From contig NZ_CP063353.1 of NCBI RefSeq assembly GCF_014931565.1, positions 930,001-994,000 on the forward strand: a stretch of DNA of 64,000 nucleotides, in the 5' to 3' direction. How positions within the stretch are numbered: the stretch's first letter is position 1; each line of letters opens with the position of its first letter. Below are positions 10,628-58,580 of this stretch, piece by piece. The position numbers and the translations under genes are program-made. The stretch is from Clostridium sp. 'deep sea'. GTDB taxonomy: Bacteria > Bacillota > UBA994 > PWPR01. The notes beneath the pieces were generated by a model. The model saw only the letters and a list, made by a program, of their open reading frames with translations, searched no databases and was not told where the DNA came from.

Positions 10628-10826
10628 GTATTTTCACTTGACATTTTAAATTGTTGATTTATCAGCAATTTGAAAGCTTTTGAGAATAGTTGCTGTCAAG
10701 GCGCTAGGATATTTATTTATGGAAATAGTACAGGCGTACGTTGGAGTAAATAAATATCCGTACAACGTAGAGAGCAACTACTTCTCAAAAACATTATCAA
10801 ATGTCAATGTATATTTACTTGACATA
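10619..10826. repeat. Large nested imperfect palindrome with matching ends
   Basis: The ends are two similar short palindromes, AAATGTCAAG...CTTGACATTT at 10619-10647 and AAATGTCAA...TTGACAT at about 10799-10825. Inside, GAGAATAGTTGCT pairs with AGCAACTACTTCTC, GGATATTTATTT pairs with AAATAAATATCC, and GTACGTTG pairs with CAACGTA. The whole could fold as one long branched hairpin or a cruciform. A weak reading frame crosses it but codes for nothing recognisable. It may be a relic of a small non-autonomous element or a structured RNA. Confidence 0.6.
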
Positions 10827-10840
10827 GGAAAATTGTTTAC

Positions 10841-10960
10841 AAATAGCTCTTCATGGAGCTATTTATTCAATTTTGGGGTGGATATTCTGTGGAACAGAAT
10901 ATGGGGTGGACTCGCCTAAAGGCTCGTGGGGTGGGTAACTGCCTAAGCAGTTACGGGGTT
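10841..10960 (+). repeat. GGGGTGG-separated palindrome array, locus A
   Basis: First copy of a modular repeat. A 9-bp hairpin (AAATAGCTC / GAGCTATTT, 10841-10864) precedes GGGGTGG (10875-10881), palindrome ATATTCTGT / ACAGAATAT (loop GGA), GGGGTGG (10903-10909), ACTC-GCCT-aa-AGGC-TCG, GGGGTGG (10928-10934), palindrome GTAACTGC / GCAGTTAC (loop CTAA) and GGGGTT. The arrangement is the same as at 24399, 38411 and 58367, but the palindrome sequences differ entirely. It is much richer in GC than the surroundings. Confidence 0.85.
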
Positions 10961-11056: not shown

Positions 11057-11283
11057 AAAAAAAGGAGGAATGAAATAACTTTCAAAACCACGAAGACACC
11101 AAGAATATAAAGGTTAGTTATCGTTATTACGATAATTGCAGGTTTATAAATCGAGCTTAACAACAGCAGCAGTCGGGATAACCCCGACCCTACAATTCTG
11201 TTACTAACTAGACAGGTTTATTAAGGTAACGATTTTGAGTATCATTTTTACAACCTGTAAACATAGCGCAACGTATACCAACC
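11057..11283. other. Hairpin-rich spacer between arrays A and A'
   Basis: No gene. It contains TTATCGT / ACGATAA (11118-11135), GTCGGG / CCCGAC (11172-11188) and a second GGTAACGATTTT at about 11224. A good ribosome-site-like AAAGGAGG at about 11062 is not followed by a usable reading frame. The segment CCACGAAGACACCAAGAA is low-complexity and of a type common in bacterial intergenic repeats. Confidence 0.5.
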
Positions 11284-11332
11284 ATATGCAAAGCACATAC
11301 CCACTCCACGATGTGCGAAGCACACCGAGTCC
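11284..11332 (-). repeat. GGGGTGG-type array in opposite orientation, locus A'
   Basis: Read on the minus strand: GGAC-TCGG-TGTGC-ttc-GCACA-TCG, then TGGAGTGGGT, then ATGTGC-ttt-GCATAT-GG. The separator CCACTCC is at 11301-11307 on the plus strand. This is a shorter mirror copy of array A, about 320 bases away. Confidence 0.75.
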
Positions 11333-11362
11333 TAGAGTCTAGCTAAATGAACACCTCATTAA

Positions 11363-11495
11363 GCCGTGGCTTACAGAATTGCTTCTACATCAAGGCGTAA
11401 AAAAAAATCTTTGCCAAGATAATATGACTAATATATCTTGGTGAAGATTTTTTTGTGCAACGAAGAGATAGATGTGATTATGGAAGCCTCCGTGG
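11363..11495. repeat. Structured 135-bp element, copy 1
   Basis: Begins GCCGTGGCTTACAGAATTG and ends ATTATGGAAGC...CCGTGG, the two ends being imperfect inverted repeats (GGCTTACAGAAT against GGCTTCCATAAT read in reverse). The centre is the strong hairpin listed at 11401-11454. A second copy at 39134-39268 keeps the ends but has a different central stem. Both copies start within a few dozen bases of a minus-strand stop codon (here ftsY). Confidence 0.75.
11401..11454 (-). terminator. ftsY: Rho-independent terminator of the ftsY transcript (bidirectional)
   Basis: AAAAAAATCTT-tg-CCAAGATA pairs with TATCTTGG-tg-AAGATTTTTTT around a 12-base loop. Both sides carry A/T runs, so it can act in both directions. 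It is the core of the structured element around it. Confidence 0.8.
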
Positions 11496-11511
11496 AAAGA
11501 AAAGTAGGCCC

Positions 11512-22670: not shown

Positions 22671-24356
22671 ATGTTGAATTTTGAAAAATACTTACTTTAT
22701 GATGAGATAACTAATCTGTTGCAAACATGGGCTAAAACATATCCCCAGTACGCCTCTTTAAATAGTATAGGCAAAAGCTATGAAGGTAGAAATGTATGGG
22801 CTATGACTATTACCAATATTGAAACTGGTGCCCCAGAAACTAAACCTGCTATGTATATAGATGGTAATATTCATGCTGGTGAAGTTACAGGCTCTATGGC
22901 TGCTTTACATTTAATAAATACATTATTAACCTCAAGTGAAGAAAAGATAAAAACTCTACTTGATACAAAAACATTTTATATATTACCCAGAATAAATCCT
23001 GATGGAGCTGAGCTGTACTTAACTACTGCTACTAAATTGCGTAGTAGTGTAAGACCATATCCCACTTATAGAAAAGATGAAGACCCTGCTGGTTTACATG
23101 CAGAGGATATTAATGGAGATGGCAGAATACTATTAATGCGAATAAGAGATGACAAACATGGAGCATGGAAAATAAGCCATCAAGATAATCGCATGATGAT
23201 AAAAAGATCACCTTTTGATTTTAATGGTCCATTTTATCATGTGTATACAGAAGGGGTATTAAAGAATGATAAAGGTGAGTTAGCTAATGAAGTTAAATAT
23301 CCTTTTGAGAGTATAGACACTAAGTATGGGCTTGATTTAAACCGTAACTTCCCAGCTGGTTATAGCCCTCATACACCTGGGTCAGGACCATTTCCATTAT
23401 CTGAGCCCGAAACACGTAATCAAGTTGAGTTTATTGATAGACATAATAATATTGCAGGAGTTTTGCTTTATCACACAACAGGGGGCGTTTTATTTAGACC
23501 CCATAGTACCATAGCAGATAAAAATTTTGCCAAGTCTGACCTAGCAATGTATGAGGTATTAGGTGATATAGGTACCCAAGTAACTGGCTACCCTGTAATC
23601 TGTTGTTATGGAGATATTTGGTCAGGAGTACTTGATGATTGGTGCTTTGAGGCTAAAGGGCTATACGCCTTTACTCCAGAATTATGGGATGCTGTTGGCC
23701 GAGCAGCTCCAGAACTCAAAAAGAAGTTCATGAAAAAAATGAGCAAAGAAGAAGAGCAACAACTCGAGTTAAAGCTATTACAGTGGAATGATAAAGAACT
23801 TATGGGCAAAGGCTTTATTAACTGGCACACTGTAGATCACCCCCAACTTGGTAAAGTTGAAGTTGGTGGCTGGAAAATTAAAGACTGTCGTCAAAATCCA
23901 CCACTAAAGTTCCTAGAGCAAGAGTGTTATAAAATGACCCAGTTTTCATTGTCTTATGCTTTATCACTACCGCAGGTTCATATTGATGAAACTGAAGTTA
24001 CCAAAATAGAAAACAATGTATATGAAATAGAAGCTTTAGTTTCTAATCACGGTTATATGGGTACTAGTATTAGTGAGCAAGCTCAAAAGCAAAAGGCTGT
24101 TCGAGAAGATTTAGTTAGAATTTCTCTGACTGATACAGCGAAACTACTAAGTGGGACCTTACAAACAAACATTGGTTATCTACAAGGTTTTTCTGCTGGT
24201 CAGCAAAAAAGGTCTTATTACTTTGGCAAACCTGCCCATTGTGCTAAACGCCTAAAATGGCTGGTTAAGTTCACTGACGAATGTGAAAAGAAAGTTAGAA
24301 TTACTGTGGTTTCAGAGCGTGGTGGAATTAAGGAAAAAGAAGTTGTAATTGAATAG
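22671..24356 (+). CDS. M14 family zinc carboxypeptidase
   Basis: A 561-residue peptidase with the M14 zinc site: His68 and Glu71 in GNIHAGEVTG and His268 in LLYHTTGG; Arg225 in LNRNFP is the substrate-carboxylate arginine and Glu337 in FTPELWD the catalytic base. No signal peptide is visible, so it probably acts in the cytoplasm on imported peptides. The extra C-terminal 200 residues, typical of long bacterial M14 proteins, have no assigned role. Exact specificity cannot be told. AGGAGGG precedes the ATG; it is a single-gene unit with a terminator behind it. Confidence 0.87.
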   Translation: MLNFEKYLLYDEITNLLQTWAKTYPQYASLNSIGKSYEGRNVWAMTITNIETGAPETKPAMYIDGNIHAGEVTGSMAALHLINTLLTSSEEKIKTLLDTKTFYILPRINPDGAELYLTTATKLRSSVRPYPTYRKDEDPAGLHAEDINGDGRILLMRIRDDKHGAWKISHQDNRMMIKRSPFDFNGPFYHVYTEGVLKNDKGELANEVKYPFESIDTKYGLDLNRNFPAGYSPHTPGSGPFPLSEPETRNQVEFIDRHNNIAGVLLYHTTGGVLFRPHSTIADKNFAKSDLAMYEVLGDIGTQVTGYPVICCYGDIWSGVLDDWCFEAKGLYAFTPELWDAVGRAAPELKKKFMKKMSKEEEQQLELKLLQWNDKELMGKGFINWHTVDHPQLGKVEVGGWKIKDCRQNPPLKFLEQECYKMTQFSLSYALSLPQVHIDETEVTKIENNVYEIEALVSNHGYMGTSISEQAQKQKAVREDLVRISLTDTAKLLSGTLQTNIGYLQGFSAGQQKRSYYFGKPAHCAKRLKWLVKFTDECEKKVRITVVSERGGIKEKEVVIE

Positions 24357-24368
24357 TAATTATAATGG

Positions 24369-24398
24369 GGGTTAGCTTATAAGCTAGCCCTCTGTTTT
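24369..24398 (+). terminator. Terminator of the M14 carboxypeptidase gene
   Basis: GGGTTAGCTT pairs with AAGCTAGCCC (one wobble) around two bases, then TCTGTTTT. The repeat array B begins immediately after the T-run. Confidence 0.8.
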
Positions 24399-24490
24399 GG
24401 TGTGGATAACCCGCGGGTTATGGGGTGGACTCGCCTATCGGCTTCGTGGGGTGGGTATCCCTAGGGGATACGGGGTGGACTTCGCGGATA
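24399..24490 (+). repeat. GGGGTGG-separated palindrome array, locus B
   Basis: GGTGTGG, perfect palindrome ATAACCCGCGGGTTAT (24406-24421), GGGGTGG (24422-24428), ACTC-GCC-tat-cGGC-TTCG, GGGGTGG (24448-24454), palindrome GTATCCC / GGGATAC (loop TAG), GGGGTGG (24472-24478), then ACTTCGCGGAT. Module order is the same as at locus A; only the variable palindromes differ. It starts directly after a terminator T-run. Confidence 0.87.
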
Positions 24491-24768
24491 CTTCCGTAGC
24501 TGAAAGCCCAAAAAGAGTCAGAAAATAATTCCTCAGCATAACTGGGTCACTTCGTCAGATATAATGGACTCATCATTTGAACTTAACAGACCATTTACCT
24601 ATAGCTAAAAATTAGTGATTGATAAATAAAAAGTTACTTTATTATAATAATTACTTAAAATTTCTTTTATTATGTTTTTTGCTCAATTTTAAACTACAAT
24701 ATTCACACGGAAAGATACTTGCTATCGTACTGCTAAATCACATGAGCAGAGCGATATGTATAATCACC
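24491..24768. other. AT-rich spacer between arrays B and B'
   Basis: No supportable gene: short reading frames here lack ribosome sites and homology. The first 60 bases are less AT-rich and may be a decayed extension of the array. Nothing else recognised. Confidence 0.5.
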
Positions 24769-24912
24769 GTTTGCATAGCAAACCCACTCCGTTTTGACTA
24801 GTCAAAACCCACTCCACAATGCCTTTAGGCGAGTCCTCCACGTAGTTGACAGTACGTTTTATGGAACATCGTGGAATAAAATCGTTACATCTAAATTATA
24901 ATAATGTCAACT
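24769..24912 (-). repeat. Array in opposite orientation with accessory module, locus B'
   Basis: Plus-strand order: GTTTGC-ata-GCAAAC, CCCACTCC, palindrome GTTTTGAC / GTCAAAAC (24791-24808), CCACTCC, GCCT-tt-AGGC, GAGTCC. Then ACGTTTTAT...ATAAAATCGT (24854-24885), the reverse-oriented partner of the locus A module, framed by GTAGTTGACA at 24843 and TGTCAACTAC at about 24904-24913. B and B' face each other across about 280 bases. Confidence 0.8.
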
Positions 24913-24970
24913 ACCCACACCCGATCTGGTCATATGTTCACCAATTTAAAATTTAGTTAAAATCTCTTTT

Positions 24971-24988
24971 ACAAACACGTACGTTTGT
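24971..24988. promoter_or_regulatory. Operator-like palindrome ACAAAC-N6-GTTTGT
   Basis: ACAAACACGTACGTTTGT is nearly self-complementary and ends two bases before the -35 box of the promoter at 24990. A matching perfect palindrome, ACAAACATATGTTTGT, covers the -35 region of another acetyltransferase-type gene at 50562-50577, suggesting a shared repressor. Confidence 0.5.
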
Positions 24989-24989
24989 T

Positions 24990-25019
24990 TTGACAAATAG
25001 TGTTTTTTTGTAATAAGAT
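24990..25019 (+). promoter_or_regulatory. Promoter for the DUF2156-GNAT gene pair
   Basis: TTGACA (24990-24995), 18-base spacer, TAAGAT (25014-25019). It lies about 30 bases before the ATT start of the following gene and its AGGGAGG site. Confidence 0.6.
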
Positions 25020-25051
25020 AAAAGAGTTAGTTACTTCAGGGAGGTTTTATT

Positions 25052-25960
25052 ATTTTTAAAAAACTCAACTTAGATAATAGAAATATTATAGAAAAATACT
25101 TAAATAAAGCCAATTATGAGCTTTGTGAATATAATTTTAATACACTCATGTTATGGGATCCTGTAGAAAAATATTCATATATAACAGATGATCAAACACT
25201 GTACTTGTTTAGTGAGCAATATAAACATATGTTTATGCCAGTTACCCAACAAGAAAACTGGTTTGAGAGCTCTAAGAAACTTATTGAGTGTTTTAAAAGC
25301 AAAAATATACCTTTAATAATTGCCTATTCGTCTGAAGAATATGCCAATTACTTACTTAAAACATTTCCTAATCAGTTTATCAAGGAGCCTGTTCGCAATC
25401 TTTTTGATTACGTATATGATGCTGAAGAGTTAAGAACATTAAAAGGTAGAAAATACGTAAAAAAACGTAATCATGTAAATAAATTTTATAGAACATTTGA
25501 GAAACGTTTCGAGTATAGAGCCTTAACAGAAGCAGATTTTGAAAATTGTCGTAAACTAATACAGCTATGGCAATTTGATAAAACTACAACTGAAGCAGGT
25601 AAACACTCTTATTTTAAAAGTCATTCTTTAGAAGATGGCATTGAAAACCTCTTAGAGAACTATCAAAAACTTAATTATAAAATTGGGGGTATTTATATAG
25701 ATAATGTTCTTGAGGCATTTTCTATTGGAAGTATTCTCAACGAAGATACGGCCCAAATACATGTCGAAAAAGCTAACCCTCATATAAGAGGTTTGTATCA
25801 GGTACTAAATAAAGTCTTTTTAAACGAAAACTTTCCTAATGTAAAATATGTTAATCGAGAAGACGATGTTGGGGTAGAAGGGTTGAGAAAAGCCAAACTC
25901 TCTTATCACCCAATACATTTAGTATCTAAGTATATTATAAGCGAAATTACAGGTGATTAA
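25052..25960 (+). CDS. DUF2156-type acyltransferase-fold protein with probable ATT start
   Basis: The frame from the first ATG (25148) would give 270 residues, but the 32 codons before it are in frame and read FKKLNLDNRNIIEKYLNK then YELCEYNFNTLMLWD, which is the typical N-terminus of DUF2156 proteins. No ATG, GTG or TTG occurs there and a TAG stands at 25028. AGGGAGG at 25038-25044 is followed by two in-frame ATT codons at 25049 and 25052; the second has the better spacing. The family has a double GNAT fold related to the catalytic part of lysyl-phosphatidylglycerol synthase; substrate unknown. It overlaps the next gene by one base. Confidence 0.8.
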   Translation: MFKKLNLDNRNIIEKYLNKANYELCEYNFNTLMLWDPVEKYSYITDDQTLYLFSEQYKHMFMPVTQQENWFESSKKLIECFKSKNIPLIIAYSSEEYANYLLKTFPNQFIKEPVRNLFDYVYDAEELRTLKGRKYVKKRNHVNKFYRTFEKRFEYRALTEADFENCRKLIQLWQFDKTTTEAGKHSYFKSHSLEDGIENLLENYQKLNYKIGGIYIDNVLEAFSIGSILNEDTAQIHVEKANPHIRGLYQVLNKVFLNENFPNVKYVNREDDVGVEGLRKAKLSYHPIHLVSKYIISEITGD

Positions 25961-38408: not shown

Positions 38409-38537
38409 GGCATGGGTGAATCTTGTTGTATAAGATTTATGGGGTAGGTATTTTATGCTTTAATTCGCTTCGCTGCTTAAAACAAAAATACGGTTTGGAC
38501 TTCACTTCGTTTCGTGGGCTTCGCGCGGATTTAAAAC
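38409..38537 (+). repeat. GGGGTGG-type palindrome array, locus C (diverged)
   Basis: GGCATGGGTG, AATCTT / AAGATT, GGGGTAGG (38441-38448), GTATTTT / AAAATAC (38448-38491) enclosing TTCGCTTCGC, GGTTTGG (38492-38498), ACTTCACTTCG, then GGGCTTCGCGCGGATTTAAAAC. The separators are less regular than at A and B, but the right end GCGCGGATTTAAAA is shared with locus D. It stops about 12 bases before the NUDIX stop codon. Confidence 0.75.
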
Positions 38538-57156: not shown

Positions 57157-58326
57157 ATGATTTGTATTTATAATGCAAAAGTTTATACCATGGCTGGTCC
57201 TGTAATAGAGAACGGTTATGTAACTATAGAAGACGGTAAAATTTTAGATGTAGGTGAAATGAGTACCTTTAATTGTGAAAACACCTGTACTTGTGTAAAA
57301 ATTGATGCTAAAGGTCAATTATTATTACCTGGCTTTGTTGAAGCTCACTGCCACTTAGGAATGATGGAGAGTGGCATTGGTTTTGAGGGAAATGATGTAA
57401 ACGAAATGACAAACCCAGTAACAGCCCAAGTAAGAGCAGTAGATGGTATGAATCCAATGGATGTTACTGTTAAAGAGGCTTTAGAGGCCGGTGTAACCTC
57501 TGCAGCAACTGGACCAGGTAGCGGTAATGTAATTGGTGGTACATTTATGGTTATTAAAACCCATGGAAAACGTGTTGATGACATGGTTTATCGTGACCCA
57601 GTTGCTATGAAATGCGCCTTTGGTGAAAATCCAAAACGCGTTTATAATGCCAAAAAAAGAATGCCTACTACCCGCATGGGGACAGCAGCTATTATGCGTG
57701 AGGCTTTAGCAAAAACAAAACAATACCTCGAAAAAATTGAGGCTGCGGGTGATGATTATAGTAAGTACCCTGCTTATGATGCTAATTGTGAGGCTTTATT
57801 GCCTGTAATTAAACGTGAAATTCCTTTAAAAGTTCATGCACACCGTGCAGATGATATGTTTACAGCAATTAGAATTGCTAATGAATTCAACGTACGTTAT
57901 ACCCTAGATCATGCTACCGAGGGTCATTTAATTGCTGAAGAGTTAGCAGAAGAAAATGTAGTTTGTATAGTAGGACCAAGTTTTGGCCATAGATCAAAAT
58001 TTGAATTACAAGAAAAAACATTTAATACCCCTGGCATTTTAGCTAAAGCAGGTATTAAAGTTGCTATAACAACAGATTCACCTGTTGTTCCACTAGACTC
58101 TCTACCCATGATGGCAAGCTTAGCTAATGAAGCTGGTATGGATGAAATGGAAGCCTTAAAAGCTATAACCATTAATGCTGCTGAAATATTAGGCGTTGAT
58201 GATGTTGTAGGAAGCATAGAAAAAGGTAAGGATGCTGACTTAGTGATTTATAGTGGTCACCCATTCGATATTACATCTAAAGCCCAAAAAGTCTTTGTTA
58301 ATGGTGAAGAAGTGTTTACAAGATAA
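57157..58326 (+). CDS. Metal-dependent amidohydrolase, paralogue 3 of 3
   Basis: 389 residues: HCH in FVEAHCHLGM near 65, VHAHRADDMFTAIRIA near 227, DHATEGH near 250 and ITTDSPVVP near 308. It is the copy closest to the family consensus. AAGGAG precedes the ATG. The operon closes with a strong terminator directly after the stop. The trio could cover a range of dipeptides or cyclic amides in peptide breakdown, which is inference from context. Confidence 0.86.
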   Translation: MICIYNAKVYTMAGPVIENGYVTIEDGKILDVGEMSTFNCENTCTCVKIDAKGQLLLPGFVEAHCHLGMMESGIGFEGNDVNEMTNPVTAQVRAVDGMNPMDVTVKEALEAGVTSAATGPGSGNVIGGTFMVIKTHGKRVDDMVYRDPVAMKCAFGENPKRVYNAKKRMPTTRMGTAAIMREALAKTKQYLEKIEAAGDDYSKYPAYDANCEALLPVIKREIPLKVHAHRADDMFTAIRIANEFNVRYTLDHATEGHLIAEELAEENVVCIVGPSFGHRSKFELQEKTFNTPGILAKAGIKVAITTDSPVVPLDSLPMMASLANEAGMDEMEALKAITINAAEILGVDDVVGSIEKGKDADLVIYSGHPFDITSKAQKVFVNGEEVFTR

Positions 58327-58335
58327 TTTTAAAAA

Positions 58336-58366
58336 ACAGCTCGCGACAATGCGAGCTGTTTTTTTT
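58336..58366 (+). terminator. Terminator of the amidohydrolase operon
   Basis: ACAGCTCGC pairs with GCGAGCTGT around GACAAT, with five A before and eight T after. Array D begins immediately after the T-run. Confidence 0.92.
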
Positions 58367-58460
58367 GGTTTGGGCTCGTCTTTGACATCGCGGGGTGGGT
58401 AATTCAATGTATGAATTACGGGTTGGACTCGCTTTGCTCATGGAGTGGGCTAGCGCGGAT
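58367..58460 (+). repeat. GGGGTGG-separated palindrome array, locus D
   Basis: GGTTTGG, GCTCGTCTTTGACATCG, GGGGTGG (58392-58398), palindrome GTAATTCA / TGAATTAC (58399-58419), GGGTTGG (58420-58426), ACTCGCTTTGCTCA, GGAGTGG (58442-58448), GCTAGCGCGGATTTAAAA. Same layout as loci A and B; right end shared with C. Starts at the T-run of a terminator, as at B and C. Confidence 0.85.
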
Positions 58461-58474
58461 TTAAAAACACATAT

Positions 58475-58580
58475 TCTATGCTTTGCGAAGCGAGCAGATA
58501 AAACCGTGAGCAACGCGAACCCAACCCAAATTTGCTAAAGCAAATTTCCACCCCACGAAGCCAAAGGCGAGTCCACTCCT
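58475..58580 (-). repeat. Array in opposite orientation, locus D'
   Basis: Minus-strand order: GGAGTGG, ACTC-GCC-ttt-GGC-TTCG, TGGGGTGG, palindrome AAATTTGC / GCAAATTT (58528-58547), GGGTTGGG, TTCGCGTTGCTCACGG, then TGCTCGCTTCGCAAAGCAT. The last part matches the module after locus A. D and D' are nearly back to back, only about 15-25 bases apart. Confidence 0.8.

Follow-up and report, generated by a model that had tools for sequence, protein, structure and literature searches.

The intergenic regions of the window contain members of a non-coding family of mosaic palindromic elements, in which hairpins are strung together by the link GGNNTGG. The window is the whole stretch of DNA analysed (64,000 nucleotides) and corresponds to positions 930001-994000 of a genome composed of a single contig of 3.83 Mb (genome G000); the sole other genome of the same genus that was examined is referred to as G001. 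The anatomy of the family, the covariation within its hairpins, its copy number, its restriction to one genus, its insertion relative to related genomes, its bias towards the 3' side of genes and towards terminators, and the near absence of G-T pairs are all direct observations. The best explanation, to which we attach an even chance, is that this genus-restricted family is mobile and that its elements are moved in trans, as folded single-stranded DNA, by a Y1 transposase.

Organization of the arrays

The original prediction placed hairpin arrays at four loci of the window. Three of them are clear (10875-10958, 24399-24478 and 58367-58458, with E-values of 3e-9, 2e-14 and 1e-13 against a covariance model that was built partly from units at 24399 and 58367), whereas the locus at 38409 is represented by a decayed copy (E = 0.13). 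The order of the modules, which had been described as the same at all loci, is A-B-A at 10875, A-B-A-end at 24399 and B-A-B-end at 58367 (A and B being the two types of hairpin defined below). Inverted partner arrays, all on the minus strand, had been overlooked at 11278-11332, 24769-24921 and 58521-58579.

The first array is directly preceded by a terminator-like hairpin (AAATAGCTCTTCATGGAGCTATTT) with a T-rich tail, read from the sequence at 10841-10874 of the plus strand. Its left half (10875-10958, plus strand; model match at 10903-10958, E = 2.6e-9; DNA folding z = -5.5) is composed of a link (10875-10881), an A hairpin (10882-10902), a second link (10903-10909), a B hairpin (10910-10927), a third link (10928-10934) and another A hairpin (10935-10954) followed by GGGG. 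The right half, its inverted partner on the minus strand (11278-11332; E = 0.012), contains B and A hairpins and the link GGAGTGG, and runs into the conserved centre GGTATACGTTGCGC. A classical REP (minus strand, GTAGGGTCGGGGTTATCCCGAC) is nested in the centre of this element, at 11160-11190. Two other dispersed repeats are present on either side of it. The promoter region of ylxM (10680-10790) carries a hairpin repeat (TTGCTGTCAAGGCGCTAGG...GTACAACGTAGAGAGCAAC) that is also present in G001 and that is flanked on both sides by copies resembling TGTCAAGT...ACTTGACAT, and the interval 11360-11500 carries a third dispersed repeat, inverted (CCACGGAGGCTTCC...GTAAGCCACGGCTTAATG), which several loci of G001 also carry.

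The second array follows the rho-independent terminator (24367-24398, plus strand) of the gene ending at 24356; the related genome G002 has a terminator of different sequence at the same place, without the element. The left half (24399-24489, plus strand; model match at 24422-24478, E = 1.9e-14) reads GGTGTGG-A-GGGGTGG-B-GGGGTGG-A-GGGGTGG and is closed by the end module ACTTCGCGGAT. The right half (24769-24921, minus strand; model match at 24784-24841, E = 4.7e-10) starts with GGTGTGG at 24921 and continues with a large A hairpin containing a nested hairpin, a B hairpin, two A hairpins and the inner end. The degenerate array occupies 38428-38533 (plus strand), behind a terminator and with GGGCTTCGCGCGGATTTAAA as its end, and its folding is no better than that of shuffled sequences. 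Concerning the last array, it begins after the rho-independent terminator AAAAAACAGCTCGCGACAATGCGAGCTGTTTTTTTT (58331-58366, plus strand) of the gene ending at 58326. Its left half (58367-58458, plus strand; model match at 58367-58426, E = 9.5e-14) reads GGTTTGG-B-GGGGTGG-A-GGGTTGG-B-GGAGTGG with the end module GCTAGCGCGG, and its inverted right half (58505-58579, minus strand; model match at 58521-58579, E = 2.0e-13) reads GGAGTGG-B-GGGGTGG-A-GGGTTGG-B-GG.

The heptamer GGGGTGG, proposed as a constant separator, is real and overrepresented (10 occurrences in the window for 1.4 expected, a number reached by no shuffle), but the constant link is the broader GGNNTGG, of which GGGGTGG, GGTTTGG, GGAGTGG and GGTGTGG are the most frequent forms. 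The expectation of copies elsewhere in the genome was borne out. The pattern GGGGTGG-N12-32-GGGGTGG was detected 38 times in G000 versus once for the reversed pattern, three consecutive GGNNTGG links 78 times versus 3 (about 40 loci), and the pattern of the B module between two links 45 times versus 0. This last pattern was also detected twice in G001 (reversed pattern, 0) and essentially never in 99 genomes besides G000 and G001. A reversed-sequence control of the chain parser (61 versus 26) was discarded because reversal preserves palindromes and G-rich links, and the reversed-pattern and arm-swap controls were used instead.

The repeated unit, a GGNNTGG link with a hairpin, is present approximately two to five times per array, and each stem adjoins its links directly, leaving both feet free of unpaired bases. 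Type A hairpins are plain perfect palindromes, often of the form GTA...TAC or ATA...TAT. Type B hairpins correspond to RYTCR-stem-loop-stem-(N)TCRY and comprise an inner stem and two outer pairs, separated by a TC/NTC internal loop that is conserved. In an alignment of 28 B-A units, every unit keeps GG...GG unchanged in the links of both sides, and the T of the consensus GGNNTGG is conserved too. The palindromes, which had been considered as unshared between loci, do differ among the loci of the window, but they belong to a repertoire that recurs throughout the genome (the 57 distinct A palindromes form 20 groups, the two largest containing 17 and 13 members).

The last link of a left half leads into GCTGGCGCGG, GCTAGCGCGG or a variant, after which the sequence is AT-rich; TTCGCGGAT, initially taken for a fixed end, closes only some arrays, and GCTGGCGCGG or GCTAGCGCGG is commoner. 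Full elements measure 200-600 bp; in these, a conserved centre separates the left half from a right half in inverted orientation. Left halves of about 108 bp, closed by GCTGGCGCGG and AT-rich sequence, also occur alone, as do right halves. A minimal form is observed at position 570129 of G000, where a terminator T-run is followed only by GGTGTG-CTGGCGCGG, without hairpin modules, and at 643.4-644.6 kb a 265-bp unit composed of a left half and a GTAGGGG REP is repeated four times in tandem. Two other readings of the architecture were set aside: that of a CRISPR-like array or of an integron attC, since the constant parts are limited to 7 bp and each of the "spacers" is a palindrome in its own right, and that of a full cruciform in which links would pair with inverted links, since the two halves are apparently unmatched module by module and solo halves exist.

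Conservation of pairing, probably at the level of DNA

Pairing was analysed in segments picked by their flanking links only. At the two foot positions, the own arms of these segments pair at frequencies of 0.86 and 0.88, versus 0.49 and 0.43 for arms exchanged among segments (at most 0.60 and 0.55 in 500 swaps). In the alignment of the 28 B-A units, with a structure of 12 pairs, 96.1% of the cells are paired versus 70.9% after shuffling, and all 12 pairs show two-sided changes. The predicted conservation of pairing is upheld by 87 cells changed on both sides (23 in shuffles) against one-sided changes in 4 of 336 cells, and by the matches of the model in the related genome G001. The covariation score of the alignment reaches 0.756 versus 0.251 for shuffled alignments, with no shuffle as high; this test is partly selected because the units were picked by a four-pair foot criterion on the A hairpin and by the motif for the B hairpin, a selection that affects neither the swap test nor the sister genome. 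When the partners are slid by 1-3 columns, pairing falls to 29-44%, and RNAalifold recovers the same helices unprompted. Single-sequence DNA folding is significant for some arrays only, and the B hairpins are thermodynamically weak.

The claim that structure and not sequence is under selection holds in its first part, as pairing is conserved while the sequence varies. Selection is one reading of this pattern. Quasi-palindrome correction, an intrastrand template switching during replication that copies changes between arms, would give the same pattern in A hairpins without selection. The type A stems (61 segments) comprise 467 positions, of which 448 are Watson-Crick pairs, 19 are mismatched and none is a G-T pair. 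G-U intermediates are common in RNA helices. In the GTAG REPs, GT pairing was frequently observed and was taken as a hint of an RNA function (PMC3733652). In the arrays, the near absence of G-T pairs, together with the fact that many arrays lie downstream of complete terminators, points to a constraint or a copying process at the level of DNA rather than RNA.

Distribution, genomic placement and insertion

The covariance model built from G000 alone recovers five places in G001 (E-values from 6e-8 to 8e-5) and none in the 397 genomes other than these two. The palindromes used in G001 differ from those of G000. No match was detected in the viral contigs, plasmids and phages searched, and Rfam contains nothing at gathering score in the window, only sub-threshold matches of chance level being present in 24340-24960. 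A pattern scan of GTDB-220, which lacked the species of the window, gave eight single matches in unrelated organisms that were judged to be due to chance. Within the genomes searched, the family is restricted to one genus. The G001 loci L110-L121 carry arrays whose short units (for example TTGGGCAATNGTTTGGCAGTTG) are apparently tiny palindromes alternating with G-rich links; they may represent a further relative of the family.

On the chromosome of G000, 34 of 40 array loci are located within 0.33-1.69 Mb, an interval that represents 35% of the genome (p = 1e-10, an optimistic value because the interval was chosen after the data were seen). The terminus, marked by the switch of GC skew near 0.555 Mb (dnaA is at 2.457 Mb), is included in this cluster, which is neither centred on it nor symmetric about it. 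The arrays sit 3' of genes, mostly 20-80 bp past the stop codon, and their G-rich strand is usually in the sense of the upstream gene. Convergent genes border 14 of 37 array loci versus 47 of 393 background intergenic regions (p = 1.5e-4). Among 60 array starts, 23 have the motif TTTT in the preceding 14 nt, versus a proportion of 12.5% for control GG sites that follow stop codons (p = 3e-7); this measure alone was used, the caller of terminator hairpins being too loose (28% in the control). Several of the other array starts directly follow another palindrome, and no target signature could be defined for the array sites beyond T-rich sequence or a hairpin.

Filled and unfilled sites, anticipated for a mobile family, were observed between relatives at two places. 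The region orthologous to 24356-25148 of the window measures 183 bp in G002, where the terminator is followed by a promoter region, versus about 790 bp in G000, where the element sits right behind the terminator. The gap between ftsY and ylxM measures approximately 70-160 bp in four relatives (G002-G005) versus 941 bp in G000, whose insert also holds other repeats. In addition, a 108-bp left half is present twice at 641 kb of G000, with one difference and with unrelated flanks on both sides, which is the pattern that transposition of a unit gives. The elements at these sites are inserted. Their ends are uncertain except at 641 kb, owing to nested and decayed copies. Concerning target duplications, the 641-kb copies share only ACT before their 5' end and none is seen at 24399-24921. 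Tandem duplications of units are found at 643.7-644.5 kb.

Mode of spread and relation to known systems

Nine genes of Y1 (HUH) transposases were detected in G000. They are flanked by GTAGGGG or GTAGTGG REPs (two RAYT-like genes), by GGGGTCAGGC or GGGGAC-type ends, or by nothing, and none is bounded at both ends by GGNNTGG arrays. No RAYT gene, of the kind that the original prediction suggested looking for in the genome, is located in these arrays or next to them. Two short RAYT-like genes (L038 and L039) adjoin GTAGGGGAGAGG and GTAGTGGAGGGC REPs, the GTAGTGGAGGGC REPs forming a tandem array. Two RAYT genes, located at 2024 and 3560 kb of G000, have orthologues in the other array carrier, G001 (53-56% identical); their flanks are GGGGTCAGGC and not arrays, and they are possible movers by co-occurrence only.

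An IS200-like transposon of G000 (1499.2-1500.0 kb; L143 and L157) is inserted in a link, GGTTT^TGG, behind a terminator. Three close relatives in G145 (L158, L170 and L173) are all located directly behind terminators, which suggests that, in this phylum, elements that depend on hairpins land on the tails of terminators. The distance of 0.2 kb between the G000 copy and an array, as well as the placement of the G145 relatives, would suit arrays that are passive relics of such a transposon, as PATE-type derivatives with its ends. This origin is very improbable: the IS splits a link that existed before it, which led us to reject its TnpA as parent of the arrays, its ends are not those of the arrays, and the array-bearing G001 contains no match to this TnpA.

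In the preferred explanation, that of movement in trans by a Y1 transposase, solo left halves and full elements insert 3' of genes, and frequently the site is the T-run of a rho-independent terminator or adjoins another hairpin. A Y1 (HUH) transposase, of the RAYT or IS200 kind, would move them in a folded, single-stranded state. This enzyme would read the GGNNTGG link and the loop of the B hairpin as its signal and tolerate any perfect A stem. The A stems would stay perfect since the DNA hairpin itself matters, since quasi-palindrome correction rewrites one arm from the other, or both, and insertion beside an existing hairpin would build arrays module by module. A Y1 enzyme in trans is the most economical mover because of the hairpin substrate, the sites beside hairpins and T-runs, and the lack of a visible target duplication; a different recombinase, or recombination with arm correction, is possible. 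Against the Y1 transposase stand the lack of a transposase gene flanked by arrays, the lack of an IS200-like TnpA match in G001 and the ability of correction to explain the A stems without any protein. The internal loop of the B hairpin persists in both species although correction would erase it, which leads us to infer that recognition concerns the B loop and the links. We propose more tentatively, and with some doubt, that the mover recognises a shape, namely perfect DNA hairpins phased by GGNNTGG together with one internal-loop hairpin, so that stems drift in a compensated manner and arrays grow beside hairpins, including the terminators of the host.

A purely mutational process, in which quasi-palindrome correction maintains the palindromes and recombination or template switching between GGNNTGG links spreads them with no dedicated transposase, is rather unlikely, even though the dominance of two-sided changes and the near absence of G-T intermediates are what arm copying predicts, tandem duplications of units are present at 643.7-644.5 kb and no dedicated transposase gene was found among the Y1 genes of G000 and their flanks. 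Such a process does not account for the TC/NTC mismatch of the B hairpin, kept in G001 as well as in approximately 40 G000 modules, for the unrelated flanks on both sides of the 641-kb unit or for the placement of arrays on the T-runs of terminators. REPs can stabilise mRNA, and the position of the arrays 3' of genes, in the sense of the gene and enriched between convergent genes, would fit hairpins of 3' untranslated regions that halt exonucleases or end transcription. This RNA role is improbable, as many arrays start after a complete terminator and would be mostly untranscribed, G-U pairs are absent (0 of 467), one-sided changes are limited to 4 of 336 cells and no Rfam family reaches its gathering score in the window. 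A similarly low probability is given jointly to sites for proteins or for chromosome structure (gyrase or nucleoid, BIME-like, or a marker of the terminus domain) and to quadruplex-duplex hybrids, in which neighbouring GG-NNT-GG links would form a two-layer G-quadruplex around each hairpin. The invariance of GG-GG in 28 units, the exact abutment of stems and links and the presence of 34 of 40 loci in a stretch that represents 35% of the genome and includes the switch of GC skew favour these readings, but the clustering is asymmetric about the terminus, the conserved T of GGNNTGG is not needed by a quadruplex loop, and the family is genus-restricted and irregularly spaced.

No description of a GGNNTGG hairpin-array family was found in the open literature, and the family, apparently undescribed, behaves in the manner of a REP/BIME mosaic or of a MITE. 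Mitochondrial GC clusters, double-hairpin elements and repetitive hairpin-forming elements are mobile GC-rich hairpins in AT-rich genomes; by description, the arrays are set apart from them by their location on a bacterial chromosome, their modular GGNNTGG links and the internal loop of the B hairpin. A link to mitochondrial GC clusters, which the original prediction named as a resemblance, is not supported by any evidence, and the two are not known to be related in sequence. Like MITEs and PATEs, the elements are small and non-coding, have terminal inverted repeats (GGTGTGG...CCACACC at 24399-24921) and are present or absent between relatives, with an unfilled site in one of them; unlike these, their ends are hairpin arrays and no parent transposon has the same ends. 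No clear target duplication is seen. With the IS200/IS605 family they share insertion right behind terminator T-runs (as for the IS200-like copies described here), hairpin ends and, apparently, the lack of a target duplication, whereas the arrays contain no gene and many hairpins, and their ends are unrelated in sequence. Terminator T-runs are thereby suggested as landing sites shared by unrelated hairpin elements, the IS200-like copies and the arrays.

The arrays resemble REPs, BIMEs and REPINs as short extragenic palindromes located 3' of genes, with inverted and tandem composites and a G-rich unpaired motif at the foot of the hairpin, and like BIMEs they display inverted left and right halves with shared motifs. 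Compensatory changes are reported in REPINs (PMC3116915), and the two REP superfamilies carry an unpaired tetranucleotide, GTAG or CGTC, at one end of the stem-loop (PMC3733652). The arrays have neither tag and place a GGNNTGG link on both sides of each hairpin, are almost devoid of G-T pairs and flank no RAYT gene. Because they differ from REPs in the tag, in RAYT flanking and in the conservation of the palindrome, we consider them as a REP-like variant and not as REPs proper. They represent an additional lineage in which mosaic palindromic elements lack both known REP tags, and constitute a natural experiment for separating recognition of hairpins by shape, selection at the level of DNA and quasi-palindrome correction. 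REPs normally conserve the sequence of the palindrome and vary the link, whereas the arrays conserve the link and vary the palindromes, keeping only the pairing, with G-T intermediates near absent.
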